This document shows, piece by piece, positions 3,001 to 26,157 of a stretch of DNA of 35,718 bases; position 1 is the stretch's first letter; the number at the start of each line of letters is the position of its first letter. A model generated the notes under the pieces. The model saw only the letters and a program-made list of their open reading frames with translations, was not told the DNA's origin and did no database searches. Made by a program: the position numbers and the translations under genes. Source of the DNA: a virus; the IMG/VR virus record IMGVR_UViG_3300022928_000068, positions 1 through 35,718 of that record; one strand, given 5' to 3'.

Positions 3001-3893
3001 CAACAGTCAAAGGTGCTATAGGTGAACAAGGAGTTAAAGGACTAAAAGGAATAAAAGGATATAAAGGACCTGACGGAGGTAGAGGACCTCAAGGAAATAA
3101 AGGTGTAAAAGGTCCTGTTGGAAGACCTGGACCTACCGGACCAACAAATACAACTAAAGGTTTAAAAGGACCAACAGGCCCAAATGGACCTCAAGGACCG
3201 AGAGGAGGAATAGGACCACAAGGTATTAAAGGTCAGAGAGCCCAACAAGGACCATTAGGAGATGTTGGTGATGAGTATGGTCCAAAAGGTCGTAAAGGTG
3301 CTATAGGACCTACCAATACAGATAAAGGTCCAAAAGGACCTATCGGTCGTGATAATCTAACTAAAGGTGCGAAAGGACCTAAAGGTGATATAGGTCCTGT
3401 CCTCGTAAAAAATGGACCTGGTGACCAAGGACCAACAGGTCCAAGAGGAAATAAAGGACCCAAAGGTCCGATAGGTAGAACGGGACCAACAGGACCTATA
3501 GGGGGTACAGGACCACAAGGTCCACAAGGTCCAAGAGGGGCTCAAGGGGTACAAGGACCTCAAGGACCTGCTTCAGATAAGAGAGTTAAAAATAATATTA
3601 AGTCTTTAAAGGGTAATTTATCTAAATTAAAAAATATTAGAGGTGTTAAATTTACATGGAAGGGTGGAATAAATCACAGATTTAATATAAAAGGAAATGA
3701 TATCGGTTTTATCGCTCAAGAAATTGATAAAGTTATACCTGACGTGGTATTTACTGGTGAAGACGGATTCTTAAAATTAGAATACGGTAAGTTAGTTGCT
3801 ATTGGGATTGGTTCAATACAAGAGCAACATACACGTATAACTCAACTTAAGGAGAGAATTAACATATTGAAATCAAAAGTTTTAAATGGGTAG
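33..3893 (+). CDS. Collagen-like phage fibre protein 1 with C-terminal S74 chaperone domain
   Basis: A 1286-residue virion fibre candidate. Residues 1-90 form a non-collagenous head related to the heads of the next two genes (I-x-PxG-T start, ending with G-x-W-K-G). Residues about 90-1178 are Gly-X-Y triplets rich in GLK, GPK, GPQ and DKG, which should form a trimeric collagen triple helix with many Lys side chains. The triplets are broken repeatedly by one-residue insertions (G-x6-G) such as STDKG or STVKG. Residues 1181-1286 are a peptidase S74 intramolecular chaperone: the SDKRVK motif supplies the Ser1181/Lys1186 dyad known in that family to self-cleave, and GFIAQE is also typical. Inference: a tail fibre or capsid fibre that trimerises through its C-terminus and then loses it. 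The start ATG has an A/T-rich leader at the window edge. The stop overlaps the next gene by 8 bases (ATGGGTAG), indicating co-translation. Confidence 0.9.
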   Translation: MAKDVRIVPQPTGTTLPYILFENANGDVMSLNVSDDGRIVFSGATHGNNLVTIDSDRVNIKGSIHMGNDMGFNGVMTITDTGGWKGSTVGLKGNKGTVGPTGPKGHQGPTGPAGARGTTVKGESGDKGRKGLKGLKGLKGNIGTSRIFYNDGDKGLKGKQGPQSTDKGDKGLKGLRGVKGEIGQLGPIGIQGPQGPVGLKGINSDKGIVGDKGDKGLKGLKGLKGLKGPVGLKGKKGILGPQGPISQAGNVADKGTKGPKGPQGQKGPKGIQGPQGTKGLTANTGGQGPIGPKGPTGSKGIKGLRGNKGVKGLKGLKGLKGRKGLIAVTGDNGQQGPIGQQGPIGFKGDKGLKGLEGPKGPKGIKGPQAETTVQGPQGSQGLQGNTSTDKGIKGQKGLKGNKGIKGLKPNSGERGNIGETGPNGTQGIQGPKGDDKGQKGFKGIKGKKGVKGAIGPQGEIGNQGNIATTGDKGLKGLFGPTAFKGLKGLKGNKGLKGPKNIQGPQGPVGLDADRGSIGNQGLQSTDKGLKGPKGTKGIKGLKGLKPGRGPQPSVGSRGVQGPQGPQGPQGPTSADKGFKGLKGLKGITGVRGEQGIGGQRGTQGTQGPTGNRGNTGTSSDKGNRGPQSTEKGLKGPDGGRGPQSTDKGQKGPQGSRGAKASTGDQGPTSTDRGNQGETGPNGPNSTDKGQKGPRGGIGTQGPKGYKGPQGPANNDRGPVGDKGFKGPKGNRGAIGGQGSVGNTSTVKGSIGPSNTTKGLKGIKGRKGSEGPRGPEGPQGPRGTASTVKGYKGPSNSVKGIKGLKGLKGLKGPRGPQGPRGPQGSTSTVKGSIGNPNNLQGLKGSKGLKGLKGSTGPRGPQGARGNVSTVKGYKGLANNTKGNTGETGPQGLKGRQGSQGPQGPRGTASTVKGPKGLTNTTKGPKGLKGLKGLKGTKGRKGDKGLIGNQSTVKGYKGPNNTTKGPKGPKGLKGLKGNFGPAGFKGFKGPQSTVKGAIGEQGVKGLKGIKGYKGPDGGRGPQGNKGVKGPVGRPGPTGPTNTTKGLKGPTGPNGPQGPRGGIGPQGIKGQRAQQGPLGDVGDEYGPKGRKGAIGPTNTDKGPKGPIGRDNLTKGAKGPKGDIGPVLVKNGPGDQGPTGPRGNKGPKGPIGRTGPTGPIGGTGPQGPQGPRGAQGVQGPQGPASDKRVKNNIKSLKGNLSKLKNIRGVKFTWKGGINHRFNIKGNDIGFIAQEIDKVIPDVVFTGEDGFLKLEYGKLVAIGIGSIQEQHTRITQLKERINILKSKVLNG
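2262..3002 (+). repeat. Exact 123-bp (41-residue) tandem superrepeat inside fibre 1
   Basis: Within the collagen region of fibre 1, the codons for the Ser of S-T-V-K-G lie at 2262, 2385, 2508, 2631, 2754, 2877 and 3000, exactly 123 bases apart each time. Each 41-residue unit contains two one-residue breaks of the Gly-X-Y register: STVKG at unit positions 1-5, and an N-x-x-K-G element (NTTKG, NSVKG, NNTKG, NNLQG) at positions 11-15. The unit is therefore 13 triplets plus two extra residues. The sequence between breaks varies, so the period is conserved more strictly than the residues. Confidence 0.88.
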
Positions 3894-6800
3894 AGATATT
3901 AACATAAATCCAACAGGTGGTACAATTCATTTTTCAGGTCAATCAAATACTAAGATTGATGTGAAATATACTAGCGGTGAATTAAATTTTAATACTCACT
4001 TAGGTAACGACTTTAAAATAACGAATCATTTAGAACTTGATAGTTTAAAATTTATGGCTGAAACCTCAGTTGTAAAAAATAATAGTGATGAATTAATTGA
4101 CGACCGTGGTAACTGGAAAGGGCATGCAATGAATATGGGAGGGCCAACAGGACCAACAGGGCCACAAGGACCTGTAGGGGCAAAAGGTGATGAACCATCT
4201 GCAGGTCAAAGAGGTGCAAAAGGTGAAAAAGGTATTAAAGGACAGACTTCATTAGAACAAGGACCTACGGGTGACGTTGGACCAAAAGGTCTTAAAGGTA
4301 TTAAAGGTGAGAAAGCCTCCCAAGGACCACAAGGACCTGCAGGGGTAAAAGGTTTAATTGGACCACAAGGTTCTGAAGGACCAGCTGGACCTGCCGCGAT
4401 TAAAGGGGATATTGGGACACAAGGACCTAAAGGGTTAAAAGGTTTACAAGGTATTAAAGGTTCAATAGGTAATTCAATTAAAGGTCCTATAGGTGCAGAT
4501 GCAGATAAAGGTAATACAGGACCTACCGGTAATAATAAAGGAGATATTGGACCTAAAGGTATTGTTGGGGATAAAGGTCCACAAGGACCAATTGGTCTTA
4601 CAGCAAATTTAGATGTTTATGTTTTCTATGATGCAACATCAATGCCAAGTGATAAGGCTAAAGAGGCTTCTCAAAGTGTTAGAGATTGGTTCCAAACGGT
4701 AAACGGTAATGGTGACATTAACAAATTATACGAGGGTGTAATCGGTAAAAACAATGTTAATGGTGAAAACTGGTTATGGTGGGCATCTTATCCATATCTT
4801 GGTTCACTTAGTGGTGGTACGTTGAGTAACGGAACACAGTTGAGTGAATTTAATAGTGCGGTACCTAACGCCACTTATGATTCCGATTATTGTAAATCTA
4901 ATTCGGGTGGTAATTGTGTACCAAGAAATTCACAATTTAATGATGGTCTAACCACATATAGAAGAATTAACAGAGGTCTTAATTTAGATACTGGTGCTGT
5001 AGAAAATATTTCTCAAGGGGTTCCTTTTGACCATAGTAATTTAAATAATACAGAAACATCGGGACAGGGTTCATTCGGTGGTGATAATACTAATTATTTA
5101 GTTATCATAGTCGCCGATGAGTCAGATGGTATTGTTGGTTTATATCATGGACAGTTAGGTGGGACACCAACCAACGCTACTAAGAGTGATTTATATAATA
5201 AACCATTTGAACTGAATGGTGATTATTGGAATAATAGTGCCGGTACTGAATATACTAATAGATATTTACACGACTACTGTGCATATATACAAGTTTATGA
5301 AGACATTATATCTAATAGACAAGGAAATGCAAGAGGTTTAATATATCCTGTAGTAAATCCACTTAGAGGTACCGCCACATATGCATTTGTTCAACATGCG
5401 GTTGGTGCTGTTGAAGGTGAAACCATTACTACTCAAGAATTTTTAAATAGTTACGGAGACCAAATGGATTCAGTTGGTCCTGAAAATTTAAATTTAACTG
5501 CATTAACACATACTAATGTATATTCAGCTTTAGCTTCTGAAAATTGTTATACGAGTTTAAATGTAGATTTTAAAAATGGGGCGGGGTTAAAACACTTTGG
5601 TTTTGGAGTTGACCCAACCGTAGATAATTTTACTGAAGAGGTGGTAACAAATGCGTTAACATCATTTTTACGTCAACAAGGTGATACAGGTGACCAAGGT
5701 AATAAAGGTATTACAGGTGATGATAAAGGAACAAAAGGTCTTAAAGGTATAAAGGGACTAAAAGGTATTAAAGGACAAAGAGGTCCTAATACGGATTCAG
5801 GTTTAAAAGGTGCGATAGGTGACCAAGGACCTGTTGGTATTGACGGTCCAATAGGTAACTTAAAAGGACCCAAAGGTGAAGTAGGTGTTGTTGGGCCAAA
5901 AGGTTTAAAAGGTCCTGATGGTAGTATAGGTGATTCACCAAAAGGTGCTGTTGGGTTAACAGGTGACCAAGGACCTACAGGTGGTAGAGGTGAAACATCG
6001 ACAGATAAGGGTCAAAAAGGTATTAAAGGACAAAGAGGTGTTAAGGGATTAAAAGGATTAAAAGGTATCAAAGGGTTAATAGCAGTTCAAGGGGATGTAG
6101 GACCAACAGGACCTCAATCAGATAAAGGAATTGTTGGTGATAAAGGTAATAAAGGGCTTAAAGGTTTAAAAGGATATAAAGGTATCAAAGGAATTAAAGG
6201 TCCTATTGGTATAATTGCCGACCAAGGAGATACAGGACCCGTTTCTCAAAACGGTGAAGGTGCAGACAAAGGATTCAAAGGACTTAAAGGTATAAAAGGA
6301 TTAAAAGGTAAGAAGGGTATTGAAGGACCTAAAGGACCTACAGGTACATCTTCGGAAGAAGGTACTGTTGGACCTACAGGTGAAAAAGGAGAAAGAGGAC
6401 CACAAGGAGATAAAGGTAATAAAGGTTTAAAAGGTCTTAAAGGTAAAAAAGGTATAAAAGGTACTAAAGGACTTAAAGGTTTAATTGCCAGTCAAGGAGA
6501 TAAAGGACCACAAGGGCCAATTGGTGTTAAAGGTGAGCAAGGAAATAAAGGGGACAAAGGACTTAAAGGTATTAAAGGTCAAAAAGGTTATAAAGGATTA
6601 ACCGGTCCTCAAGGTAACAAAGGTTTAATGGCTTCTCAAGGAGATACAGGACCACAAGGACCGGCAAGTATTAAAGGTCAAAAAGGACTTAAAGGTATTA
6701 AAGGTCAAAAAGGATATAAAGGGTTAAGAGGTAATAAAGGTCCAAAAGGTTATAAGGGATTAAAAGGTATTACAGGTGATAAAGGATTTATTAGTACAGT

Positions 6801-9069
6801 TACCGGAGATAAAGGTATTAAAGGTCAAAAAGGGTTTAGAGCAACCGATGGAGATAAAGGTATAAAAGGGCAAAAAGGTTATAAAGGTAATCAAGGTCCA
6901 AGAGGAACTGCATCTACAGTAAAAGGTTTAAAAGGTCGTAAAGGTTTTAAAGGTAATAGGGCTACTGATGGTGTAAAAGGATTTAAAGGATTTAAAGGAT
7001 TAAAAGGGTTACGAGGACCTTTGGGACCACAAGGTAGTCAGGAGGGCCCAAAAGGATTAATAGGTGCAGAAGGCCCTATAGGTCCTACTGCCGATAAAGG
7101 TTTAAAAGGATTAAAAGGTATTAAAGGACCCAAAGGACCTAAAGGACCTAAAGGATTAAGGGCAGGTGCAGTTGGACCAACAGGACCTAAAGGACCAATC
7201 GGACCTACTGCAGAAAAAGGATTTAAAGGTCTAAAAGGTCCAAAAGGTTATAAGGGACCTAAAGGACCTACAGGTTCCACAACAGGTGCTGAAGGAGATA
7301 CAGGACCACAAGGTCCAACAGGTCCTACCGCTTACAAAGGGTTTAAAGGGATAAAAGGATATAAAGGTCCTAAGGGTCCAAAAGGACCTCTTGGTTTGAC
7401 AACAGGACCTAAAGGGTTAAAAGGACCTATAGGTCAAACAGGACCAACTGCGAATAAAGGCCAAAAAGGATATAAAGGACCAAAAGGATATAAAGGACCT
7501 AAGGGTCCACTTGGACCGACTACAGGGGATAAAGGACAAAAAGGTAAGAAAGGTTCGATAGGTGATAGTGCAAATAAAGGATTAAAAGGTCCAAAAGGGC
7601 CTAAAGGTTATAAGGGGCCTAAAGGAGAAAAAGGTCCTCATTCAAACAATAAAGGACCCGTAGGACCTCAAGGACCACTCGGACCTACCGCTGATAAAGG
7701 TGAACAAGGACCTAAAGGACCAATTGGAAATAAAGGACCTAAAGGACCAAAAGGAAGTGCAACCGGTGATAAAGGGCAACAAGGAGAGACAGGACCACAA
7801 GGACCTCTTGGAAAATCAGGACCAACTGGAGGTGTTGGAGATAAAGGTCCGAAAGGTGCCAAAGGTCCTCAAGGGTTAAATGGGATACAGTCAGGACCTA
7901 CAGGACCACAAGGACCTGTTAATAACACAAAAGGACAAAAAGGATATAAGGGACCTGAAGGTCCAATAGGTATACAAGGTCCCGAAGGAGAAATCGGTAA
8001 TACGGAGGGAGCTCAAGGACCTAAAGGTAGTGTAAGTACGGTTAAAGGTCCTAAAGGACCTAAAGGTTATAAAGGACTGAAAGGATTATACGGTCCCAAA
8101 GGTTTAAAGGGTAGACAAGGACCGACTGATATTAAAAAATTTATTGGTCAACAAGGTGATAAAGGACCAAGAGGAACAGATTCTACAGTTAAAGGACCGA
8201 CAGGTCCACAAGGGGCTAAAGGGCCAAAAGGACCCATAGGACCTAAAGGAGCTAGAAAAACTCAAGGACCGACAGGTCCACAAGGGGCTAAAGGGCCAAA
8301 AGGTTACAAAGGACCTACAGGGCCACAAGGTCCAAGAGGTCAAAAAGGACGTGTAGGTGCAAGTGGACTTAGTGGTCCACAAGGGGAAAAAGGATTTAAA
8401 GGTAGGAAAGGACCTGCGGGACCTTCAGGTGTATCGTGTTATTCACACGATGTTGCACTTATAAGTGATAAAGCATTACCATGTAGCTTTTGTGATAGAG
8501 ATGCGCCACCGTGTGGTGAGGAACCCAACGTTACAGTATATTCTCCTAATTCAGGGGCATTAAGTGCGGGTAATTTTGTTTATACTGACTCAAATTGTAC
8601 CGAATGTAGAACACCGAGACCTGGTTGTTTTGATGATAAGTCAGGCCAATTTACATTATGGGACGCTGACCATAATAATAGTTCTATACATACTTGGGAT
8701 TTACAATTTTGTGGATTATTAAAGTGTGCGGATTGTTCCTTCTCAGATGAAAGACTTAAAACTGGTATTAGAACAATATCTAATTCATTAGAATCCTTAT
8801 TAAACATTCAAGTTACTGAGTACGATTGGAATGAGAAATATTCGGGTTACGATTTCTTAAAAGAAAGACAAAAACTTCACTCTATTGGTATGATTGCACA
8901 AGATATCCAAAAAATATTTCCTGAAGTAGTTTACAAAAGAAGTGATGGTTACTACGCTATTAAATATTTCAAATTAAATGCACTAATAATAGAATCGATT
9001 AAGTCTCACCAAGTATTTATAGATGATATTGATGAACAAATAAAATGGTTAAAAACACAAATTAATTAA
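3886..9069 (+). CDS. Collagen-like phage fibre protein 2 with inserted vWA-like domain, Cys-rich knob and S74 domain
   Basis: A 1727-residue fibre, the largest protein in the window. Residues 1-90 are an N-terminal domain of the same type as in fibres 1 and 3 ([11 protein letters not shown], ending GNWKG). Collagen Gly-X-Y runs cover about 91-240 and 598-1500. Residues about 241-597 form a globular insertion that starts [15 protein letters not shown] and contains [12 protein letters not shown]; the hydrophobic strand plus D-x-T-S and the later acidic strand end resemble a von Willebrand factor A fold, although the MIDAS motif is not canonical. After the second collagen region comes a knob with ten cysteines, then an S74 chaperone with Ser1620 and Lys1625 in SDERLK and GMIAQD. 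It overlaps fibre 1 by 8 bases and fibre 3 by one base (TAATG). Inference: a receptor-binding or surface-adhesion fibre. The collagen and S74 calls are firm; the vWA call is tentative. Confidence 0.88.
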
Positions 9070-12000
9070 TGGCTAATATTATTATATACCCTACAGGGAG
9101 TACTACTAATAGTAATCCTCACATTATATTTACAGGTTCAGGTAGTAATGATTATACTATTGAAATAGATACTAGTGGTGATTTAATATTTAAGTCGTCT
9201 AGCAATATTTTTAAAATTAAAGATAGTGCTCAACCATTTCAATTTGACGGTGAAGTAGATGTGGTTAATAGTGAATTATATGTGGGTAGTACTATGGTTG
9301 TTGATTCAAATGGTAATTGGGTTGGAGTATTATCAGGATTAAAAGGAATACAAGGACCAATTGGTGCAAAAGGAAGAGTTGGTGACCAAGGACCTAAAGG
9401 TGCAAAAGGTCAAGAAGGTCCTGTTGGTGAGCAAGGAGATAAAGGTAATCTAGGTATTAAAGGAAGAATAGGTTCTACAGGAATTAAAGGTGCAAAAGGA
9501 CCTATTTCAGTTAAAGGTGATAAAGGTAATAGAGGGCCTCAAGGGGAAGACGGAGCGGTAGGACCTAAAGGTTTAAAAGGTGTAAGACCTTCAGACAGTA
9601 GTAAAGGTATAAAAGGACCAAAAGGTTTAAAAGGAGAAACATCTAACGATAAAGGTTTAAAAGGACCTATAGGTTTTAAAGGTATTAAAGGTAATAAAGG
9701 ACCGAAACAAGTTACAGGACCCCAAGGGTCTCAAGGAGGTATTTCGCCAAAAGGACCTATTGGGTTACAAGGTCCGACAAGTACTGACAAGGGTCAAAAA
9801 GGACCTAAAGGTATTAAAGGAGTAAAAGGTCAGAAAGGTATTGACGGTAATAAAGGTCCTGAAGGTGATAAAGGTTTAAGATATACTGATGGGGACCAGG
9901 GGCCACAAGGACCTACCGGTCCTACTGCAGACAAAGGTATTAAAGGTAACAAAGGTGTTAAGGGGTTATTAGGTCCACAGGGAATACAAGGACCTGATGG
10001 TACTGTTGGTACTCAAGGACCACAAGGACCCTTAGGACCACAGGGTGTACAATCTTCAGATAAGGGAGATAAAGGTATTAAAGGTATTAAAGGTAGGAAA
10101 GGAATTAAAGGTCCTAAACAAGTACGTGGTAATATTGGTATACAAGGTGATAAAGGTTTTATAGGGCCACAAGGACCTGAAGGACCAGCAGGACCTGCAG
10201 CCGTTAAAGGACCTATAGGTCCACAAGGGCCGATTGGGCCAAAAGGTTTGGAAGGGAACCGAGGGCCACAAGGTTCATCATTAAAAGGACCAACAGGTTC
10301 GGGAGGTGAGAAAGGTCCGCAAGGTGATAATAGTACAGATAAAGGTCCTATAGGTATAAAAGGACCGATAGGTATAAAAGGTTTTAAAGGACCTAGAGGA
10401 CCACAATCAGAAGTAAGTGTTGGTGATAAAGGTAATACTGGACCCATAGGACCACAAGGACCGGCTAGTTCCGATAAAGGACTAAAAGGGCCTCAAGGGT
10501 TTAAAGGGTTAAAAGGTAAGAGAGGACCACAAGGACCACAAGGAAATAATGAAAAAGGATTTATAGGTGATGGTGCACAAGGGGGAGATATAGGTCCAAC
10601 AAATACTGATAAAGGACACCAAGGACCAACTGGACCTGTCGGACCAAAAGGTTTTGTAGGTACTAAAGGTAGTATAGGTACGTCTCCTCAAGGTGATGTA
10701 GGAGATGGTGGTGACCAAGGACCTACTGCAAGTCAAGGGCCAGCAAGTACCGATAAAGGACTAAAAGGTTTAAAAGGATTTAAAGGGCCAAAAGGGTTTA
10801 CAGGCCCTCAAGGAGGTATAGGACCTAGAATTACAGGACCAACAGGACCTAATGGACCTACCGGACCAACAAATACAGATAAAGGTTTAAAGGGTTTTCA
10901 AGGACCAACAGGTCCTACTAATACGGATAAAGGCACACAAGGGTCTAAGGGGCCAAGAGGACCTCAAGGTGGTCAAGGACCAACAGGACCTAACGGACCT
11001 AAAGGTATAACAGGAGGTCAAGGACCTCAAGGACCTACTAGTACTGATAAAGGTGTTAAAGGTCAAAAAGGATATAAAGGACCTGAAGGGCCAACAGGAG
11101 AAAAGGGACCATTAGGACCAAAAGGATTACAAAATAATACACAAGGAGACCAAGGACCCGTATCAAGTGATAGGGGTGATAAAGGGCCTAAAGGTATTAA
11201 AGGTATCAAAGGTGTTAAAGGACCTAGAGGTGAACAAGGAGCCAAGAATATTACAGGAGCAAAAGGACCAACAGGACCCCAAGGACCTGCTGGAAATAAT
11301 AAAGGACCAATTGGACAATTAGGACCCATAGGGTTTACAGGTCCACAAGGTTTAAAAGGTAGTACAAGTGATATAGGTAATAAAGGTCCGATAGGACCAC
11401 AAGGACCCGCGAGTACGGATAGAGGGGTACAAGGTAATATAGGTGCATTTATTGGACAAGGCCCCCAAGGACCTCAAGGACCAAATAGTTCAACAGGTCT
11501 TGTTGGTGCTCAAGGACCAATAGGACCTGCGGGTAACAATAAAGGACCAATCGGCCCTCAAGGTAATAGAGCGGATAAAGGACCTATCGGTCCTGTAGGG
11601 GAGAAGAATAATACTGGTGGACAAGGACCAACCGGCCCACAAGGACCGGCTAGTAGTGATAGAGGACCCCAAGGACCCCAAGGTAATAAGGCACAAACAG
11701 GTGACCAAGGACCAATAGGTCCGCAAAATATAGTAGGTGCTCAGGGACCCATAGGACCACAAGGGCCGGCTAGTTCAGACAAAGGACCAAAAGGACCATT
11801 AGGACCTATAGGACCTATAGGACCACAAGGCTCTATAGGTTCCAAGAATGCGACTGGTGGTGTTGGTGATAGAGGACTTCAAGGAGACCAAGGACAAAAT
11901 AGAGGACCTCAAGGAGACCAAGGACCAATACAGTCAGGAGGTTCTCAAGGTATACAAGGACTAAAAGGGTTAAAAGGACTAAAAGGAGGTAGAGGTACTC

Positions 12001-12908
12001 AAGGTCCAAATAGTTCTGATAAAGGACCAATAGGTCAAAAAGGGCCTAGAGGTCCACAAGGACCAAGAGGAGGAAATGGTATACCAGGACCACAGGGTCC
12101 AACAGGACCTAACGGACCGATTGGACCTGAAGGTAATAAAGGTATTAAAGGAATAAAAGGTTTTATAGGACCTAAAGGTCCCAAAGGACCACAAGGCCCA
12201 CAAGGCCCAACCGGCCCACAAGGACCACTAGGACCGTTAGGGTCAAGTAGTACAGATAAAGGAGAAAAAGGTTCAAAAGGACGTAAAGGACCGATAGGGA
12301 TAACAGGAGCTAAAGGGCCAAAAGGTTACAAAGGACCTAAAGGTTCAATAGGTCTTGATGGTGCGAATGCAGATAAAGGTATTAAAGGTCTAAAGGGTCC
12401 TTTACAACTTAAGGGACGTAAAGGTCCTATTGGACCACAGGGTCCCACAGGCCCTAAAGGGTCACAAGGATTAATTGGACCTAAAGGTTATAAAGGTCCT
12501 ACAGGTGGTGGAGGACTTCAAGGAGCCACAGGACCTCAAGGACCTGCCGGAGCACAAGGACCAGCAGGAGGACCATCTGACAAAAGATTAAAAGAAAATA
12601 TTGTTACCATTGATGAAGCACTTAAAAAAGTATTGAAATTAAGAGGAGTAGAATTTATATGGAGAAAAGAAGGTATTAATGGTGAAATCATTGATGAGGG
12701 TGGTAGAAAAGATATTGGTGTTATTGCACAAGAAGTTAAAGAGGTTTTACCTGAATTAATTCTTGGTGACGAAGAAAGTGCTTATAGAGTAAGATACGGT
12801 GAAATGATATCAATATTATTTGAGGCTATTAAAGAACAAGAATCAATACTAGATTTAAAAGAAGATGAGTTAGAAGAGTTAGAGAGAAAATTTAAAGATA
12901 ATCAGTAA
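9069..12908 (+). CDS. Collagen-like phage fibre protein 3 with C-terminal S74 chaperone domain
   Basis: A 1279-residue paralogue of the two preceding genes. Residues 1-95 are the shared head domain ([10 protein letters not shown] at the start, GNWVG at its end). Residues about 95-1165 are Gly-X-Y repeats, here richer in GPQ, GPI and GPT than the GLK-rich fibres 1 and 2, with frequent S-S/T-D-K-G register breaks. Residues 1170-1279 form an S74 chaperone with Ser1170 and Lys1175 in SDKRLK and GVIAQE. The last 30 residues are highly charged and helical-looking, as expected for a trimerising tail. Translation is probably coupled to fibre 2 through the TAATG overlap. The 3' end overlaps the convergent minus-strand gene by 17 bases, with no visible terminator between them. 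Confidence 0.9.
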
Positions 12909-14257: not shown

Positions 14258-15871
14258 ATGAGTCTTAGTCAAGTTTTAACTGAAAGTAGGAAAGATGATT
14301 TTTTGAGAAAATTTAAAAGTAAGTTTTCACCTGAACAACTTAAGAAAGTGTTTAGTCTTTCAAGAAGTTTAGCACCTAATCAAAAATTCCTAATGTTTTT
14401 AGGTAATGTAATATCTTCAGAAAATTTTGATGAGAATCTAAGTAAGGCTGAAAAAGTAGTAGAAAAGTTTATAAAATATCAACAAGCATTAGAACAAAAA
14501 GATATTAATCAGTATAGAACTTTAGAAGACATAATAACTACAATTAATAATCATGAAAATAAAGTAAGACGTACAGTTAAATCAGTAGACGGTGCAGATG
14601 TCGTATATGAAAATGATAGATTTACAGTAGTAACACCTCAGACACATAAGGCAAGTTGTTACTATGGGGCTGGAACTAAATGGTGTACGGCCTCTTTAAA
14701 TGGTTCTACACATTTTGATAATTATAATGTTGATGGTAAACTTTTTTATATTCTAGATAAAAAGGCTAAAAGTAATGACCGTTTTTATAAAGTGGCGGTT
14801 TTACAAAAATATGATGGAGATAAGACTTTTTATGATGCACCAGATAAATCATTCAAAGACGGATGGATATTAGGTACTCCTGAGTATGATGAAATACAGA
14901 AGAGTATTGATGAGTATATTGAAACTAACTACCAACGAGAAATTAAAATTTTCAAAGATAAAGAAGCCGCTCGTTTAGAAAGAGAAAGATTAAGAAAGAT
15001 AGCTGAAAGACGTAGAATTGCTCAAATGTTAGCTGATGCGGAAGAAAGAAAAGAAAACGATGAATGGAATTTAGAAAACACTGATGTTGATGGTGAAAAG
15101 GCTAATGCAGTTTTTGAAGTTTTAGTTGATGAATATGGTGTTAATGTTAATGAAGAAGAAGGAGAATCTATCTACAATTTAGTTCCTTCACAATATTCCC
15201 ATTATGATTTACAAACGTTTGAATGGACAGGAGAAGACGAACAAGGATTAATACTCGCTGTTGGAGATTGGGATGAGGTATGGCAGGCGGCTAAGGAATA
15301 TTATGAGGGTTTATGGGACGATATGGGTGCTGATGGTTGGAATAGAGGTTTTGTTGAATCATATATTGATGAAAGTGAAGTCAGAGATTGGTTTTATGAT
15401 ATGTTTGAAGAAGATGTAAATAATAATTATGAGGTTTACTTTGATGATGACTTACCTCTGTCTGATGAACAGGAATCTCAAATCGCCAAATTAAAAGAAG
15501 AACAAGAAGAGTTAGATGAAATAACTGCTAATCTTGACGATGAATATACTGATGATGAAGTAGAATTAGCTGAAGATAGATGGAATGAAATTGATGATGA
15601 AATAACTGATATTGAAAGTGACCCTCAAGGAGAACCCACAGTTGGACAGATAGAAGATATGGTTAATTCAAGAGTAGACGATGTAATGTATGATATGGTA
15701 AGGTCTATGGAAGATTACGGATTAGATTTAAATGACTATGTGGATACTGATGCTTTATTTGAGGCGGCTATTGATGCTGATGGTGTTGGTAATGCCTTGA
15801 ATAGTTATGACGGTGCTGAATATGAGTCATCAATCAATGGAACTTGGTATCATGTAGTTAGAACAGAATAA
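14258..15871 (+). CDS. YGxGTKWCTA-core phage protein A (537 aa)
   Basis: Exact function unknown. Residues 1-20 (MSLSQVLTESRKDDFLRKF) hold an L-T-E step resembling a prohead-protease site. Residues about 85-230 form a core with QKDINQYRTLEDI, then VYENDRFTVVTP, then CYYGAGTKWCTAS, then a YN-x-x-GKLFYILDK strand. I recall this motif set from hypothetical proteins of large phages but cannot name a biochemical activity. A charged helix rich in Arg/Glu follows (about 235-270), and the remaining 270 residues are extremely acidic (Asp/Glu-rich, tryptophan-containing), perhaps a nucleic-acid-mimicking or scaffold-like tail. It is a paralogue of the next gene, whose ATG overlaps its stop (TAATG). A late promoter-like motif lies directly upstream. 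Packaging into the capsid is an inference. Confidence 0.8.
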   Translation: MSLSQVLTESRKDDFLRKFKSKFSPEQLKKVFSLSRSLAPNQKFLMFLGNVISSENFDENLSKAEKVVEKFIKYQQALEQKDINQYRTLEDIITTINNHENKVRRTVKSVDGADVVYENDRFTVVTPQTHKASCYYGAGTKWCTASLNGSTHFDNYNVDGKLFYILDKKAKSNDRFYKVAVLQKYDGDKTFYDAPDKSFKDGWILGTPEYDEIQKSIDEYIETNYQREIKIFKDKEAARLERERLRKIAERRRIAQMLADAEERKENDEWNLENTDVDGEKANAVFEVLVDEYGVNVNEEEGESIYNLVPSQYSHYDLQTFEWTGEDEQGLILAVGDWDEVWQAAKEYYEGLWDDMGADGWNRGFVESYIDESEVRDWFYDMFEEDVNNNYEVYFDDDLPLSDEQESQIAKLKEEQEELDEITANLDDEYTDDEVELAEDRWNEIDDEITDIESDPQGEPTVGQIEDMVNSRVDDVMYDMVRSMEDYGLDLNDYVDTDALFEAAIDADGVGNALNSYDGAEYESSINGTWYHVVRTE

Positions 15872-17571
15872 TGACAAACATAAAAACATACAAGATTGGA
15901 GATAAATGGTCAGATGATTTCGATTACAATGGTATGTTGAAATCAGGATTAAAAGTAAGCCTAAAAACTCCAATAAAAAAAATGGAAGATTTGTTAAAAT
16001 CTTTTACAGATGTTAACTACCATTCAGAGGGAGGACATTTATCACACCTTATTAAAATGGTAAAGTCAGGTAATAATAAAGATGCGGAAAAACACCTTAA
16101 AGACTTTAAAGACTCAATTAATAAAACCTTACATAATTTATCAGAAGGTCAGAATCCACACAGAAAAAAATATGTAGACGTTATAAGTGAGGGTAGAAGA
16201 GAAGATATTTTAAATAGGTTTAATGAAAATCCTGAGTTACAAAAAACAGTAGAGGAATTCTTGGATAACGAATTTAACAAAAGAACTAATTACAAATATG
16301 TAAATTGGGTCCTCAAAAAAAACTTTGATGATTTTGGTAATACTTTTATTTCTTTAGATAGTGTAATTAATTGGCTTGAGAAATTTGATAGAGTAAGAAA
16401 AAACTTACAATACAAAGATATTAATCAATATAAAAATATTCATGACCTTATAGATACATTAGAGGTTTATGGTGATACAAAAAGTCAACAAAGGTCAAAA
16501 TTAAAGGAAGGTACTGAAAGGATATATGAAGACGATAGAATATTAGTGGTAAAACCATTAACCAAAGATTCTTCATGTTATTATGGGTCAGGTACCAGAT
16601 GGTGTACAGCATCAACACAGTTCGGTAATAGATTTGAACAATACAATTCAAAGGGTCCATTGTATTATTTAATAAATAAAAATATGCAACCTACTAATGA
16701 TTATTATAAAATTGCAATTCATTATGATAGTCAAAATAATAGAATGACTCTATATGATGCTAAGGATGTTGTCAATGAAAATCTTTTAGGTTTAATTAAG
16801 ACACTTCCGGCCTTTGATGCTATTCAAAATGACATTACTCAAAATCATAAATGGGATAGGAGTGTGAACATTATTGATATGTTCCGTAAAATATTTAGTG
16901 GTGATTCTAAACTTACTCAAAATCTTAATTTTAAAAGATATAGTTACATGATAGATGGTAAACCACTTAGATTACAAGGTTTTACATCTGGTAAACTAAT
17001 AGGTACATGGGGAGTGAGAGAGTTTGTATTAACTGTCAAAGATGATGATTTTGTATTTTATGCGACCAAGAGTAATGTTTTAGATGAAAGACCAATATAT
17101 GAGGCTATTGAATATGTAGAAAACAAAACAGGTCAAGAGATAAGTCCTGATAGAGTGGATAAATCATTATTTACATATGTTTTGTATAAAATTGTGGACT
17201 TATTCGTAGAAGAAAACTCACAGTTCATGACTGTCGGTAATGACGAGATAACATATTGGAGACCTAAAAATAGTCATTCAAATTATAGGTTTGCTAGTGT
17301 GAATCCAGACAATGCTTACATCAGATTTTTAGAATATATTAGAGATAAAGAATCTCAAAATGAACCAGCCAGTAAAAGAGATTTTTTAATTAATGTTTTA
17401 GAAAAAGACCCTGAAAAGATAGTTTTATCAGGATATCTCTCAACAATGTTCAGTTCAATGAAAGATGCTGGACTCGTTAGTCTTTACAGAGCCAAAGATT
17501 ACCCTTATTTTAGGTACAAGATTGGACCCAACTACAATCTTTGGAAACAAGGAAGACTAGAGAGAATATGA
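15871..17571 (+). CDS. YGxGTKWCTA-core phage protein B (566 aa), with N-terminal extension
   Basis: A paralogue of the preceding gene. Homology begins at residue about 102 (VDVISEGRREDILNRF aligns with SQVLTESRKDDFLRKF) and continues through QYKDINQYKNIHDLI, RIYEDDRILVVKP and CYYGSGTRWCTAS (about residues 230-245), then YYLINK. Residues 1-100 are an extra Lys-rich helical region absent from paralogue A, possibly a separate small protein fused in front. An I-S-E step at residues 105-107 lies exactly where paralogue A has L-T-E, so processing there would give both proteins equivalent ends. The C-terminal half (about 310-566) is not acidic like A and is not recognised; it ends with a helix-turn-helix-like stretch (NVLEKDPEKIVLSGYLSTMF). 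The overlaps with neighbours (TAATG before, ATGA after) indicate an operon. Confidence 0.8.
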   Translation: MTNIKTYKIGDKWSDDFDYNGMLKSGLKVSLKTPIKKMEDLLKSFTDVNYHSEGGHLSHLIKMVKSGNNKDAEKHLKDFKDSINKTLHNLSEGQNPHRKKYVDVISEGRREDILNRFNENPELQKTVEEFLDNEFNKRTNYKYVNWVLKKNFDDFGNTFISLDSVINWLEKFDRVRKNLQYKDINQYKNIHDLIDTLEVYGDTKSQQRSKLKEGTERIYEDDRILVVKPLTKDSSCYYGSGTRWCTASTQFGNRFEQYNSKGPLYYLINKNMQPTNDYYKIAIHYDSQNNRMTLYDAKDVVNENLLGLIKTLPAFDAIQNDITQNHKWDRSVNIIDMFRKIFSGDSKLTQNLNFKRYSYMIDGKPLRLQGFTSGKLIGTWGVREFVLTVKDDDFVFYATKSNVLDERPIYEAIEYVENKTGQEISPDRVDKSLFTYVLYKIVDLFVEENSQFMTVGNDEITYWRPKNSHSNYRFASVNPDNAYIRFLEYIRDKESQNEPASKRDFLINVLEKDPEKIVLSGYLSTMFSSMKDAGLVSLYRAKDYPYFRYKIGPNYNLWKQGRLERI

Positions 17572-21186: not shown

Positions 21187-21756
21187 ATGTCACGTATTAT
21201 ATTAAAAGAAGAAGAAAAACATTATATACAAAAACTGTATTTACTTGAAAATGATACGGTAAGGAAAGATGGTACTAAAATGAGGGCTAGTCAAAACTTT
21301 TGGGATTTTATAAAATTCGAAGAAGGTGACCCTAAGAAACCTGTGGGTTCTATCAAAGAACCTGTACTTAAAGCTTACAAAGACACTAGTGGTATTTGGA
21401 CTATAGGTTATGGTCACACAGGAAGTGATGTTAAAGAAGGGTTAGTTATAACTAAACAACAGGCACTTAAATTATTATACTCCGACGCAACTATTTCCGC
21501 AGATTGTGTTAGAAGATTTTTAAGTGAATGGAAAGATAAAGGTTTAAAAACTTATATGTTAACACAAGGAGAATTTGATTCATTGGTTTCATTAGTTTTT
21601 AATTCAGGATGTGATTCAGTGAGGATGTCAAGATTTATTCAATACCTTAAATCGGGTCAAAATAAAAAAGCGGGAGAAGCTATTCTAAAATACAAAGCCA
21701 ATAATTCTGGTTTAAAGAATAGAAGAGAAAAAGAAAGTAATATGTTTTTATCATGA
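21187..21756 (+). CDS. T4-type lysozyme (GH24 muramidase)
   Basis: A 189-residue glycoside hydrolase family 24 endolysin that hydrolyses the MurNAc-GlcNAc bond of peptidoglycan. The catalytic triad of T4 lysozyme is recognisable: Glu46 in FEEG, Asp66 in YKDTSG and Thr72 in WTIGYGH. The C-terminal GLKNRREKE is also typical. The Glu-Asp spacing is longer than in T4. I chose ATG 21187 because the longer frame starting at 21106 runs through an intrinsic terminator and the promoter-like motif. The first 36 residues precede the enzyme domain and contain I-L-K-E and L-L-E steps resembling prohead-protease sites; there is no signal peptide. It overlaps the next wall-hydrolase gene by 4 bases (ATGA), forming a lysis or wall-entry module. 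It could be a virion lysozyme rather than the lysis enzyme. Confidence 0.88.
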   Translation: MSRIILKEEEKHYIQKLYLLENDTVRKDGTKMRASQNFWDFIKFEEGDPKKPVGSIKEPVLKAYKDTSGIWTIGYGHTGSDVKEGLVITKQQALKLLYSDATISADCVRRFLSEWKDKGLKTYMLTQGEFDSLVSLVFNSGCDSVRMSRFIQYLKSGQNKKAGEAILKYKANNSGLKNRREKESNMFLS

Positions 21757-24008
21757 AAAAATTAATTAAAGAATCGGGACTAAGGAATATGAAGGCGTTA
21801 GCCGACAGATATAAAAAGGCTAAAATTTATTTCCACCAAGATTTAGACGGTGTTACAACTGCCTTAGCTATGAAAAATTATTTAGAAGATAACGGAATTA
21901 AAGTTGTTGATTCTGAGATAATACAGTATGGTGATAAAGAGTTCACTGTTAAAAAACAAGACGCTCAAGGAGATACTATGCCGGTTTTAGTTGACTTCGC
22001 CCACGGTAAACCAATGTTTGTTGTCCACACGGACCACCATGATAGTCAAACAGGTGTTGAAGATGAGACTTCAACTTCTTTCAGGTCATCAAGGTCTAAT
22101 GTTGAAACCTTATCGCAGATAATGTCTCCAAAAGATATTTTTACTTCTGATGATATAAGGTTAATATCTACAGTTGATTCTGCAGATTTTGCGAAGTACG
22201 GATTAAAACCTAAAGATATTATGAATTTTGTTTTTAAACTTCAAAAAGACGAATCATTACAAAAAAATAAAACAGCTTTAGGATTGGCGACTAACAAATT
22301 AATGTTAGCCTATAAGAATAAACCTGGATTTATGGAGGAATTAGTTATGACTTCTAACCCATCGTTGTTAAATATATTTCAAAATATTAATAGAATCGCG
22401 GCGGAGAGAGGATATGCCCTTCCTGATGAAATGGATTTAAATCAAAAAGATTACATTCAAAAACAAAAAGAAAGTGAAAAAGTATATGTGGACGATAATA
22501 TTATAGTTCAATATGGTGGAGGTTCAATGTTTAAACCAGGTTCTTATGATAGATACACACCATTTGAAAATAACCCTGACGCTGATTTCTTAGTTATTGC
22601 TTGGCCTATGGGATTAGTACAAGCATCTTGTAACCCATTTAAAAAAGAAAGAGAACTAAAAGGTGTTAATTTAGGTGAGATTGCTCAAGAAGTGTTAAGT
22701 AAATGGGAGAGTCAATTAAAGGATAAAATAATTCCATTATCTACAATAAAGTGGATATCTGAAGGTAACAAACAATTTGGTGATGAATCAGTTGGTTTTA
22801 CAAATGCAGATTTAGAAGCATTTTATGGTGATAAAGTACGTTCTATTGATGGTGGTGATGAATATATGGAAAAGTTAAAAGACATCATGGATACACCTTC
22901 AACTCAATTAACGGAAGACCAGTGGGCAATATTAGACAAATTAGGTGTACCTGCGTGGGAAATGATTCAAGCAAACTCAGGAGGACATAAATGTATTACT
23001 AATATATCAGCACTTAATTATTTCGGTAGAGGTAAGAGAAAACCTGAAGGTAAATATAAATACAATAAAGATAAAGGTGACTCACCTTATGTTAAGTTTA
23101 CTAAAATGATTCAAAATGAATTTGTTAGAAAACTTAAAGAAAAGATTAATGAATCTAAAAATTTAAATGAATCGGTTTTAAATGAAGCAATAGGTTTTAT
23201 ATTTCCAATTGGTAATGAAGAATTCAATGTTGGTTATGATTCCTCAGGATTAGGTAGAGGTAAGAAAAAAGTATTAGATAAAGACGAGGCGATTCATAAT
23301 AGTGATTATGGGGCGGGTGACGCTAAACATCAACACAGAGGAGGACATTTAGGAATTGATATATTTGCACCTAAGGGTACTCCAATTATTTCAGCTACGG
23401 ATGGAGAAGTGATTAAAGTTAGAAGAAAAGATAGAACTACTGGTGGTAAGACAGTTAGTGTATTATTAAATGGTATAGTTTATTATTATGCACACTTAGA
23501 CCAAGTATCTGATAATATAAGTAAAGGTGACGATATTAAAAAAGGCACATTCATAGGTACAGTTGGTGATACAGGAAACGCTAAAGGAACCCATCCACAC
23601 TTACACTTTTCGATGTATGAGAAAAGAGGTGGGTATAAAAGAGGAACTATTGACCCATGGCCATTTTTAAAAGATAGTCTTGATGGGGGAGATTTAATTG
23701 TTATTGAACCAGGACAAGTTGTTGATAAAGTTGAGGGAAAAATTGCACGTGAAGATTTAAGTATTACGGATATTGTTAACAACGGTGATAACTCTGAATT
23801 AATATCAATGGGTTCACAAGGTAAAGGAGTTGAAGAAATCCAAACAATTTTAGATAAAGAAGGTTACGATTTAGGGGATGCTGGGATTGATGGAATCTAT
23901 GGTCCTTATACAATGAGAGCGGTTAAGAAGTTCCAAAAAGATAATGGTTTAAATTTGATTGACGGAATTGTTGGTATTGAAACGTCAACAGAATTCAAGA
24001 AACACTAA
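21753..24008 (+). CDS. DHH phosphoesterase - M23 peptidase - peptidoglycan-binding fusion protein
   Basis: A 751-residue multidomain protein. Residues about 20-460 resemble a DHH-family phosphoesterase (RecJ/nanoRNase superfamily): HQDLDG with Asp30 and Asp32, DHH at 94-96, and an SGGH element at 409-412 like the DHHA1 substrate-binding motif. Residues about 480-640 are an M23/LytM zinc metallopeptidase with H532-x3-D536 in GHLGID and H616-L-H618 in THPHLHF, the usual zinc ligands and catalytic His. Residues about 685-750 match a PG_binding_1 domain (QGKGVEEIQTIL, then DGIYGPYTMRAVKKFQ). The linker (465-479) carries three I/L-N-E steps. The N-terminus MKKLIKESG has an I-K-E step. The M23 and binding domains indicate peptidoglycan attack; the DHH half acts on phosphodiesters or small oligonucleotides in known relatives. 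The combination is odd, and cleavage in the linker is plausible but unproven. Confidence 0.85.
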   Translation: MKKLIKESGLRNMKALADRYKKAKIYFHQDLDGVTTALAMKNYLEDNGIKVVDSEIIQYGDKEFTVKKQDAQGDTMPVLVDFAHGKPMFVVHTDHHDSQTGVEDETSTSFRSSRSNVETLSQIMSPKDIFTSDDIRLISTVDSADFAKYGLKPKDIMNFVFKLQKDESLQKNKTALGLATNKLMLAYKNKPGFMEELVMTSNPSLLNIFQNINRIAAERGYALPDEMDLNQKDYIQKQKESEKVYVDDNIIVQYGGGSMFKPGSYDRYTPFENNPDADFLVIAWPMGLVQASCNPFKKERELKGVNLGEIAQEVLSKWESQLKDKIIPLSTIKWISEGNKQFGDESVGFTNADLEAFYGDKVRSIDGGDEYMEKLKDIMDTPSTQLTEDQWAILDKLGVPAWEMIQANSGGHKCITNISALNYFGRGKRKPEGKYKYNKDKGDSPYVKFTKMIQNEFVRKLKEKINESKNLNESVLNEAIGFIFPIGNEEFNVGYDSSGLGRGKKKVLDKDEAIHNSDYGAGDAKHQHRGGHLGIDIFAPKGTPIISATDGEVIKVRRKDRTTGGKTVSVLLNGIVYYYAHLDQVSDNISKGDDIKKGTFIGTVGDTGNAKGTHPHLHFSMYEKRGGYKRGTIDPWPFLKDSLDGGDLIVIEPGQVVDKVEGKIAREDLSITDIVNNGDNSELISMGSQGKGVEEIQTILDKEGYDLGDAGIDGIYGPYTMRAVKKFQKDNGLNLIDGIVGIETSTEFKKH

Positions 24009-24807: not shown

Positions 24808-25013
24808 ACGAACAATTATTTAACATGTTGATGAAATCTGCTGAGGCAGATAGAGCAAAGGCTTTATTATCTTTAGAATTACTTGGTAATAAAGCAGTGG
24901 GGATTGGAGACCATTCAACAGAAGACTTCTACAAAAATGCTGAAGAAGCACTTACTACTTTAGTGGATGCAGATGATAGAATCGCAGCATTAACTAAGTA
25001 TTTTAATAAGTAA
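24804..25013 (+). CDS. Small phage protein of unknown function (69 aa)
   Basis: A 69-residue acidic, helical protein with the segments AEADRAKALLSLELL, GIGDHSTEDFYKNAEEAL and DADDRIAALTKYF. I have a memory of similar short proteins in T4-like marine phages but no functional knowledge. It is translated with the NUDIX hydrolase (ATGA overlap) and is the last gene before the ncRNA region. Confidence 0.65.
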   Translation: MNEQLFNMLMKSAEADRAKALLSLELLGNKAVGIGDHSTEDFYKNAEEALTTLVDADDRIAALTKYFNK

Positions 25014-25037
25014 ATTCAAAAAAATTGGTCAAAGAGC

Positions 25038-25067
25038 TTGTCTGAGAGTAATTTTTTTGTATCTTTG
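25038..25067 (+). promoter_or_regulatory. Bacteroidetes-type promoter, upstream copy
   Basis: TTG at 25038-25040 and TATCTTTG at 25060-25067 fit the Bacteroidetes -33/-7 consensus (TTG, TAnnTTTG) with a 22-base offset. It lies 25 bases after the 69-residue gene and about 105 bases ahead of the second, stronger promoter. Confidence 0.6.
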
Positions 25068-25142
25068 TATAACTTTTAAAGAAAACGGGCATATTTATAT
25101 TTTACCCTACTGATTATTTCAGAAATTTTTTTTAAAAAGTAT

Positions 25143-25173
25143 TTGACAGATTGAAAATTTTGTTGTAAGTTTG
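25143..25173 (+). promoter_or_regulatory. Bacteroidetes-type promoter of the large ncRNA
   Basis: TTGACA at 25143-25148 and TAAGTTTG at 25166-25173 match the Bacteroidetes TTG / TAnnTTTG promoter with a 23-base offset, identical to the spacing of the promoters at 26107 and 32722. A start near 25180 is predicted, immediately upstream of the boxA-like element and the structured RNA region. Confidence 0.72.
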
Positions 25174-25202
25174 TCAAACAAATCAGTAAGAGTACTGAAG
25201 AC

Positions 25203-25213
25203 GTTCTTTGAAA
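25203..25213 (+). promoter_or_regulatory. boxA-like antitermination element in the ncRNA leader
   Basis: GTTCTTTGAAA, about 25 bases after the predicted transcription start, resembles the boxA (NusB/S10 binding site) of Bacteroidetes rRNA leaders, which as I recall read GTTCTTTGA followed by an A/T-rich tract. It would protect a long untranslated transcript from Rho-type termination. Confidence 0.45.
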
Positions 25214-26063
25214 ATATTAATAAGTGTCTAATTTGACCATCACAGTTTGTGAAAGAAATACAAAAAGATTAACCCCTTTTTTCTACAACGGTTAAAATAA
25301 GACATTTGACGGCGGTTTAGCGTCGTTAGATAACCCCAGTAATGGGACTAAAGGGATTGAAACGGGAATAGTACACCGTGAATGTCCGCAGTCGTGAGGC
25401 TGACAACTAAACAAAGTGGCTACAATCAAGACCCTAAGGGCAACTGCTAAAGGGACGAGATTACTCTGAATCCGTGGAATATCAGAGTTGAGATAGTGAT
25501 ATCAATAGGAAAAGCTACAGGTGACGGTTCGACACATCCTGTCAGATGTTGTAGGGCTGGGTACCAGTACGAAGGGATTCCGAGACGATAAGTTAACGTA
25601 TTCCTGAAGTACCGTAAGTTGACAGACTTACAGAGAGGTGTGAAGCATTTTGTTTCCAAAAGAAACGAACCTTCTCCCGAAGCACATCTTTCATTATCCC
25701 ACAGTTGCTATACTAACTAACAATTAGAAAGCAAAAGTTCTTCGGGCGTTGACAACGAAAGGTGTCTAACACTTCGAGTCATAGACTAACGAAGTCATTG
25801 GTAAGACCGCAAGTCTTCTGATGTCGATTACCAAATACCTGGTGGGACGGCCATCCCTTCGTAAACTCGCAAGGTTTAACAGAGTAAAGTAGTAGTTGAG
25901 TAGTTGTTAACGAGAAGAGTGGTTCACTCAAATAACCGACACTGACTTGATACTCTCGGCAACGATAGTGGATAAGTGAGCAACCGACATAGGGTAATCT
26001 CACTAAAGACAGGTCACATAAACGTGTAATCTCAGCGTTCTATACTTTATATATATCTTCCTT

Positions 26064-26096
26064 AACCTCAGTTCTAACCAACTGAGGTTTTTTTTT
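26064..26096 (+). terminator. Intrinsic terminator of the large ncRNA
   Basis: AACCTCAGTT at 26064-26073 pairs perfectly with AACTGAGGTT at 26080-26089 (10 bp, six-base loop) and is followed by T to 26096. It is the strongest terminator in the window. Confidence 0.88.
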
Positions 26097-26106
26097 ACCT
26101 AATAAT

Positions 26107-26137
26107 TTGTGAGTTAGAATAATATTCCTTATATTTG
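26107..26137 (+). promoter_or_regulatory. Bacteroidetes-type promoter of the small-gene operon
   Basis: TTG at 26107-26109 and TATATTTG at 26130-26137, offset 23 bases, lie between the ncRNA terminator and the ATG at 26158. The leader would be short and A-rich with no Shine-Dalgarno. Confidence 0.7.
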
Positions 26138-26157
26138 TAATACTAAAAAAAAATATT

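Follow-up and report, generated by a model that had tools for sequence, protein, structure and literature searches.

GOLLD genes are often located near tRNA genes, an arrangement that is usual without being defining, and expression of the RNA increases during lysis. The cages formed by GOLLD are large RNA-only assemblies, and for the env-38 member cryo-EM shows a homo-14-mer cage (PMC12286853). ROOL (RF03087) is likewise a giant cage-forming phage RNA, and a further giant phage RNA, the 0.8-kb noncoding RNA of ICP1, lies beside the lysis cluster without neighboring tRNAs, as described in PMC7567579. On the side of transcription, rRNA operon leaders are described as running in the order boxB hairpin, boxA, boxC (PMC10250234), and, according to PMC4807359, the E. 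coli boxA binds NusB–NusE and relieves Rho-dependent termination of long untranslated RNA in reporters; the paper argues that, at E. coli rRNA, the Nus complex acts mainly in maturation and not in antitermination. Such elements also precede long noncoding RNAs and CRISPR arrays (PMC7862264, which gives GTTCTTTAAAA as a Legionella boxA).

Here, we describe a locus that, judged from its sequence, is a complete, two-domain GOLLD gene of a distinct 5′ clade, opening with a leader of the rRNA type. It lies in a stretch of viral DNA of 35,718 nucleotides, which was analyzed whole and is referred to in what follows as the window. A preliminary description had claimed a noncoding unit of about 0.9 kb at window 25180–26096, with its own host-type promoter and a 10-bp intrinsic terminator, and our analysis bears this out (Table 1): the interval is one unit with a promoter of the Bacteroidota type and a terminator followed by a T-run, the stem of which is altered in relatives with compensation, such that pairing is kept (by eye). 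We take the arrangement of TTTG, 20 nt and TAAGTTTG to fit the Bacteroidota promoter consensus; the output of a sigma-70 promoter scan of the window does not include this promoter. From its position, transcription would start near 25180. There is no gene-sized plus-strand open reading frame within window 25014–26157, and the two minus-strand frames inside the interval (70 and 74 aa) are unconserved, with in-frame stops in 12/15 and 13/15 of the aligned sequences, respectively; a conserved coding frame, which we looked for as evidence against an RNA gene, is thus rejected. The fold of the whole transcript has an energy z-score of −3.53 against 20 dinucleotide shuffles, none of which was as good. 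The G+C content is indeed higher than in the flanks (0.434 at 25501–26000, compared to 0.334 and 0.312 in the adjoining 500-base windows), but it is not diagnostic, because the tail-fiber genes of the same phage reach 0.49. Two details on the GNRA-capped hairpins that had been singled out need correction: the GTGA loop at 25394–25397 is not retained in relatives, and the stem of the GCAA hairpin at 25959–25962, described as perfect, has a C–U mismatch.

Table 1. Features of the GOLLD locus in the window, and sites of GTTCTTTGA on the 169-kb contig of the same phage.
Feature	Position	Strand	Details
Bacteroidota-type promoter	25142–25173	+	TTTG 25142–25145, 20 nt, TAAGTTTG 25166–25173; direct reading
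boxB-like leader hairpin TCAGTA-AGAG-TACTGA	25183–25198	+	6-bp stem
boxA element GTTCTTTGA	25203–25211	+	only plus-strand copy in the window
Variable leader, boxA to structured core	25212–25310	+	aligns poorly among relatives; unpaired in consensus
GOLLD 5′ domain (taken, by analogy, as the cap domain)	25311–25632	+	conserved, covarying in 15 sequences
Closing helix, 5′ strand	25325–25331	+	pairs with 26029–26036; 7 pairs, all kept in alignment
GOLLD 3′ domain, Rfam RF02032	25633–26038	+	301.6 bits, gathering score 150, model 1–416 of 416
Hairpin with palindromic GGCC loop	25844–25857	+	loop 25848–25853; central GC in 15/15 sequences
Intrinsic terminator	26064–26096	+	26064–26089: 10-bp stem, 6-nt loop; then T-run
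boxA site	contig 73075		heads GOLLD
boxA site	contig 121573		directly after tRNA-Tyr inside the array; small protein genes precede the next tRNA
boxA site	contig 122798		46 nt before first gene of 8-tRNA array
boxA site	contig 150604		heads phage tmRNA (150206–150589; RF00023, 77.7 bits)
Two remaining boxA sites	169-kb contig		both within open frames (221 and 138 codons), on the opposite strand

Membership in the GOLLD family, which had been suggested along with other possibilities, follows from the match to RF02032 at twice the gathering score and over the full model. The layout is also that of a GOLLD, with a leader and, at 25311–26038, a variable 5′ domain and a conserved 3′ domain, a size of about 800 nt or more (boxA and the 3′ end being approximately 835 nt apart), and a carrier that is a virus record with tail fibers, an endolysin and a thymidylate synthase. 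With env-38 (PMC12286853), the RNA shares the 3′ domain over the whole model, the two-domain layout, the phage location and a candidate palindromic loop; it differs from known GOLLDs in its distinct 5′ clade, its hairpin–boxA leader and the distance to tRNA genes, as there is no tRNA in the window, and the sole tRNA array found on a 169-kb contig that belongs to this phage (see below) lies about 47 kb from GOLLD. A BLAST comparison of the window RNA with named phages gave no match. The ICP1 RNA resembles it in being a giant phage RNA next to lysis genes and with no tRNA neighbors, and differs in its host phylum (PMC7567579).

The phage itself is large and tailed, and encodes collagen-like fibers, an endolysin, a NUDIX hydrolase and a thymidylate synthase that shares 51% identity with its counterpart in Flavobacterium phage immuto, which carries no GOLLD. 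From the style of the promoter and this gene similarity, the host is probably a Bacteroidota bacterium. The gene order at the locus (methyltransferase, endolysin, M23 peptidase, a gene between the M23 peptidase and NUDIX genes that we presume to be DUF192-like, NUDIX, GOLLD) is wholly or partly kept in those clade members that have flanks. Elsewhere in the window, three giant collagen-like tail-fiber proteins (1286, 1727 and 1279 aa) stand in a row at 33–12908; two tandem proteins at 14258–17571, which match the same PHROGs of unknown function (17056 and 28193), are probably paralogues; and a 751-aa protein at 21753–24008 seems to combine an M23-type peptidase and a domain for peptidoglycan binding with an N-terminus that, by eye, is DHH-like.

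The most informative feature of the locus is the hairpin–boxA leader, to which the preliminary description makes no reference. To assess how often it recurs, GOLLD loci were grouped into 43 clusters at 85% identity over 500 nt, which are therefore not fully independent, with at least 1 kb of upstream sequence required, and the interval 700–1000 nt before the GOLLD 3′ end motif was searched. Among the matches listed, GTTCTTTGA stands at the expected place in 26/43 clusters, where 300 shuffles average 0.1 and reach 2 at most, and 25 of these 26 are confirmed as GOLLD by Rfam, the remaining one (L289) having been left out of the scan. We note that the motif was named after the first comparison, and that an unsupervised 9-mer count and a reverse scan were made to offset this; in the former, GTTCTTTGA is the joint top 9-mer of the 43 clusters without prior choice. 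Five further clusters, two of them L267 and L268, carry GTTCTTTAA or GTTCTTTAC at the same place. Upstream, a TAnnTTTG element ends 15–40 nt before boxA in 25 of the 31 GOLLD leaders inspected, and 53 of 65 distinct promoter–boxA spacers (some of which lead tRNA arrays) contain a stem that has 5 bp or more and ends no further than 6 nt upstream of boxA, where single-base shuffles give an expectation of 2.8. These stems have 21 different sequences, and, while each pairs with itself by construction, the arms of one stem pair with those of another in just 5/270 combinations, which indicates that the hairpin persists through changes of its sequence. Two other routes to relatives were abandoned: a first, degenerate GOLLD pattern returned 67 loci, with an Rfam GOLLD in the records of only 4, all of them the identical GOLLD, and a collection based on a neighboring protein (79 loci, L069–L147) consisted mostly of phages with just that small gene in common, any other neighbor gene being present only in L069–L072 and L079 and GOLLD only in L069–L071 and L079.

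The same 9-mer is found in the rRNA leaders of Bacteroidota. Out of 61 genomes searched, 23 gave a 16S match and 17 had readable leaders, and exact GTTCTTTGA occurs within 450 nt upstream of 16S in 11 of these 17 (12/22 loci, one leader being counted twice), at 83–218 nt from the rRNA; in the leaders read from the other 6 genomes, the exact 9-mer is absent. In several cases, boxA is again preceded by a hairpin (by eye). On sequence grounds, we take GTTCTTTGA to be the boxA of Bacteroidota rRNA operons, with the match being to Bacteroidota leaders in general rather than to those of an identified host of this phage. The leader of the window thus resembles an rRNA operon leader in having a hairpin and then boxA after the promoter and before a long RNA that is closed by an end-to-end helix, and the 9-mer is identical; it differs in that boxA leads a phage cage-RNA gene and not rRNA. 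Host tmRNA genes carry the exact motif in only 2/24 readable leaders (30 loci, Bacteroidota genomes), standing directly before the gene in both (L468 and L471), so that boxA at host tmRNA is a minority trait.

Within the phage, boxA is not confined to GOLLD. A viral contig of 169,337 bases is 99.93–99.99% identical over all 35,718 bases of the window, and hence represents the same phage; it has six GTTCTTTGA sites (Table 1), and all three stable-RNA loci found on it are boxA-led, as the sites head GOLLD, the tRNA array and a tmRNA. The tmRNA was found after its boxA; ARAGORN covered all nine contig pieces, and Rfam all but L457 and L459. The site inside the tRNA array recalls the second boxA of rRNA operons. 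A reverse scan, which looked for the promoter element together with boxA, whatever lay downstream (although its pattern holds TTTGTAAAACA, which is typical of GOLLD leaders), returned at least 65 sites in 62 new loci. Among the matches listed, 51 sites have at least 900 nt downstream, and these are followed by GOLLD in 39 cases and by tRNA arrays in 5 (2 of them intron-bearing), with the other 7 being antisense in open frames of 192–859 codons. Taking the viral loci used as a whole (6.8 Mb, both strands), 200 distinct GTTCTTTGA sites are found among the matches listed, 85 of which are GOLLD leaders and 18 of which lie within 150 nt of a tRNA. The huge phage LR745206 has both arrangements, with boxA before a tRNA and a second hairpin–boxA between tRNA-Met and GOLLD.

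Phage tmRNA leaders selected without regard to boxA are more mixed: among five in representative GOLLD loci, one has the exact boxA, one has GTTCTTTAA and three have neither, including that of L206, which is one mismatch away, and among seven distinct leaders of tmRNAs found by ARAGORN, one is exact, three have GTTCTTTAA, one has a single mismatch and two lack the motif (L299, L290 and L237 recur among these sets). As a separate observation, in all nine of the loci scanned for it (L377, L395, L416, L223, L222, L188, L194, L255 and L237), a tmRNA lies on the opposite strand, facing GOLLD at 0.1–2.4 kb; eight of the nine were picked for unexplained boxA sites, so that the share with a tmRNA should not be read as a frequency. 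Another 27 loci, picked otherwise, have a tmRNA in 5, with 2 facing GOLLD (L206 and L238) and 3 on the same strand. At L206, a group I intron match (7035–7258) adjoins and slightly overlaps the tmRNA match (7231–7637, minus strand).

A competing reading is that GTTCTTTGA is no Nus site but a DNA element of Bacteroidota promoters, either initially transcribed or promoter-proximal, which would leave GOLLD as already known. Phage tmRNA leaders and loci L169 and L202 fit such a reading, as the motif lies there 5–18 nt after the −7 element, and hence near +1. Across GOLLD leaders, however, the distance to the −7 element varies between 5 and 40 nt (it is 29 nt from TAAGTTTG in the window; two more leaders, at 54–55 nt, may reflect false promoters), and the motif also occurs directly after promoterless tRNA genes and far upstream of 16S rRNA, at the distances given above. 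We therefore consider a DNA element unlikely; the variable spacing and the promoterless sites after tRNAs suggest instead that boxA acts at the level of RNA.

The 9-mer could alternatively be a structural part of GOLLD, through base-pairing or a cage contact, rather than a transcription signal. Its place at the 5′ end of the RNA in many GOLLDs is what such a role would predict, but RNAalifold leaves it unpaired, it heads tRNA arrays, tmRNA and 16S rRNA, all without GOLLD structure, and it is missing from many true GOLLDs. Among the matches listed, the exact motif is absent from the tested interval in 17/43 clusters, and 15 of these 17 are Rfam-confirmed GOLLDs (14 of the 16 scanned, plus L260, where a boxA motif lies further upstream than the interval); L267 and L268, which carry GTTCTTTAA, fall below the Rfam score. 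Three Streptococcus GOLLDs, three Acinetobacter-phage GOLLDs and that of the huge phage LR756502 also have no boxA. These cases make a structural role very unlikely, and the many confirmed GOLLDs without the exact motif show that boxA is no general requirement of the family. Several of the boxA-negative GOLLDs sit among tRNA genes, where they could be transcribed by read-through from another promoter.

The GOLLDs of the Acinetobacter phages are unannotated: in AM24 (KY000079 25213–25581) and YMC13/03/R2096 (KM672662 16682–17048), they lie among annotated tRNA genes, and in Ab15 (PP763259 26332–26697) hypothetical proteins are annotated over the RNA. At L207, a Pistol ribozyme (837–912, minus strand, 69.4 bits) lies near the expected 5′ end of the GOLLD (94–475, minus strand), and may for this reason trim it. 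A pattern scan of genome contigs gave 25 loci, 18 of which were scanned with Rfam and 5 of which reached the GOLLD score, namely, the three from Streptococcus and L314, all without boxA, and L319 (a Bacteroidales MAG), with GTTCTTTAA. A search for GOLLD in 99 Bacteroidota genomes, with strict filters and without a positive control, gave 0 matches, and is therefore uninformative as to its occurrence there.

The body of the RNA was examined in an alignment from boxA to the 3′ end of the window and 14 relatives, chosen from clade loci among those obtained by two GOLLD-specific pattern scans of viral contigs (5′-half identity down to 71% among the matches listed). The consensus structure of these 15 sequences has 193 base pairs, 84 of which change on both sides, a number matched by 0/500 shuffles, with the structure having been derived from the same alignment; covariation among homologues, which had been proposed as a check, is therefore present. 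Counted by cell, 98.3% are paired, compared to at most 43.7% when the partners are slid. The closing helix escapes this test, because 6 of its 7 pairs never vary. Compensatory change that keeps the structure over 15 sequences, a leader and terminator that are kept in relatives, and a largely kept gene order all speak against a degenerate GOLLD relic or a functionless chance fold, which we regard as highly improbable, even though one Lactobacillus prophage reportedly does not require GOLLD for its production (work cited in PMC7567579).

RF02032 covers the 3′ domain only, and the region of approximately 25311–25632 is unmatched by any Rfam model. A profile of the clade 5′ domain does, however, recognize the 5′ regions of other GOLLDs in register, if only weakly (E of 7e-7 at best outside the clade), and it is for this reason that we regard the gene as complete, with both GOLLD domains, and assign it to a separate 5′ clade. 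The term “divergent” used in the preliminary description is thus apt for the 5′ domain, with its weak sequence homology to others, and not for the 3′ domain, which is typical. Given the full-length GOLLD match, this 5′ homology and the lack of any ROOL covariance-model match at E ≤ 1 in 25000–26150, the further suggestions of a new class of giant RNA, for which only the Rfam-unmatched 5′ half would speak, or of a ROOL member have a negligible probability and are rejected.

Assembly of the window RNA into a cage is expected by homology to the solved env-38 14-mer, and the hairpin with the GGCC loop (Table 1) is a putative counterpart of L21a, which with L21b makes up the symmetric self-kissing loops of that cage (PMC12286853). 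In six other GOLLDs (L210, L245, L250, L200, L314 and L319), a tRNA lies inside the 3′ domain match, and is probably located in a linker that the published structure places within the cage.

Taking these observations together, we think it likely that the GOLLD RNA is made, with phage tRNAs and tmRNA, by transcription of the host rRNA type: as the GOLLD gene opens with an rRNA-type boxA, the virus probably borrows the host machinery for rRNA transcription, and, as the tRNA array and the tmRNA carry the same boxA, GOLLD would belong to a set of phage stable RNAs made like host rRNA. In such a scheme, host RNA polymerase would start near 25180, and the small hairpin and boxA, transcribed first, would bind host NusB–S10 and other Nus factors. 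These would make the polymerase processive along an untranslated RNA of 0.9 kb that, without them, is expected to be open to Rho, and would probably assist the folding of the RNA. The RNA would then fold into its 5′ and 3′ domains, closed by the end-to-end helix, and end at the 26064 terminator, and the folded RNA would be expected to form a homo-oligomeric cage of the kind solved for env-38. Nus binding, antitermination and expression of the window GOLLD are predictions of this scheme. A precedent is the boxA of CRISPR arrays (Stringer et al., as described in PMC7862264), which is similarly located outside rRNA and serves a long noncoding RNA, and from which the present phage differs in using boxA for GOLLD, tRNA arrays and tmRNA. 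No boxA leader on GOLLD or on phage stable RNAs was found, by title, among the open-licence papers listed.

A more far-reaching version, which we put forward tentatively and consider rather doubtful, is that Bacteroidota phages have a stable-RNA regulon that relies on host antitermination, in which the boxA-tethered polymerase serves as a platform for assembly of the cage, similar to the cotranscriptional platform proposed for the 30S subunit, and NusB/S10 is drawn away from rRNA. If true, titration of NusB and S10 by abundant boxA leaders would shut down ribosome synthesis during infection.

The RNA itself is a new member of the known GOLLD family, and its rRNA-type leader, common to tRNA arrays and tmRNA, is a variant that the open-licence papers listed do not, by title, describe. 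This leader offers a concrete handle on the transcription of a GOLLD cage RNA inside the cell, and perhaps on its folding there, and it ties the cage RNA to the phage tRNAs and tmRNA as one coproduced set, suggesting that the cage is produced together with the translation-related RNAs of the phage. It further suggests that antitermination of the rRNA type, known for rRNA and CRISPR arrays, serves the stable RNAs of phages in Bacteroidota.
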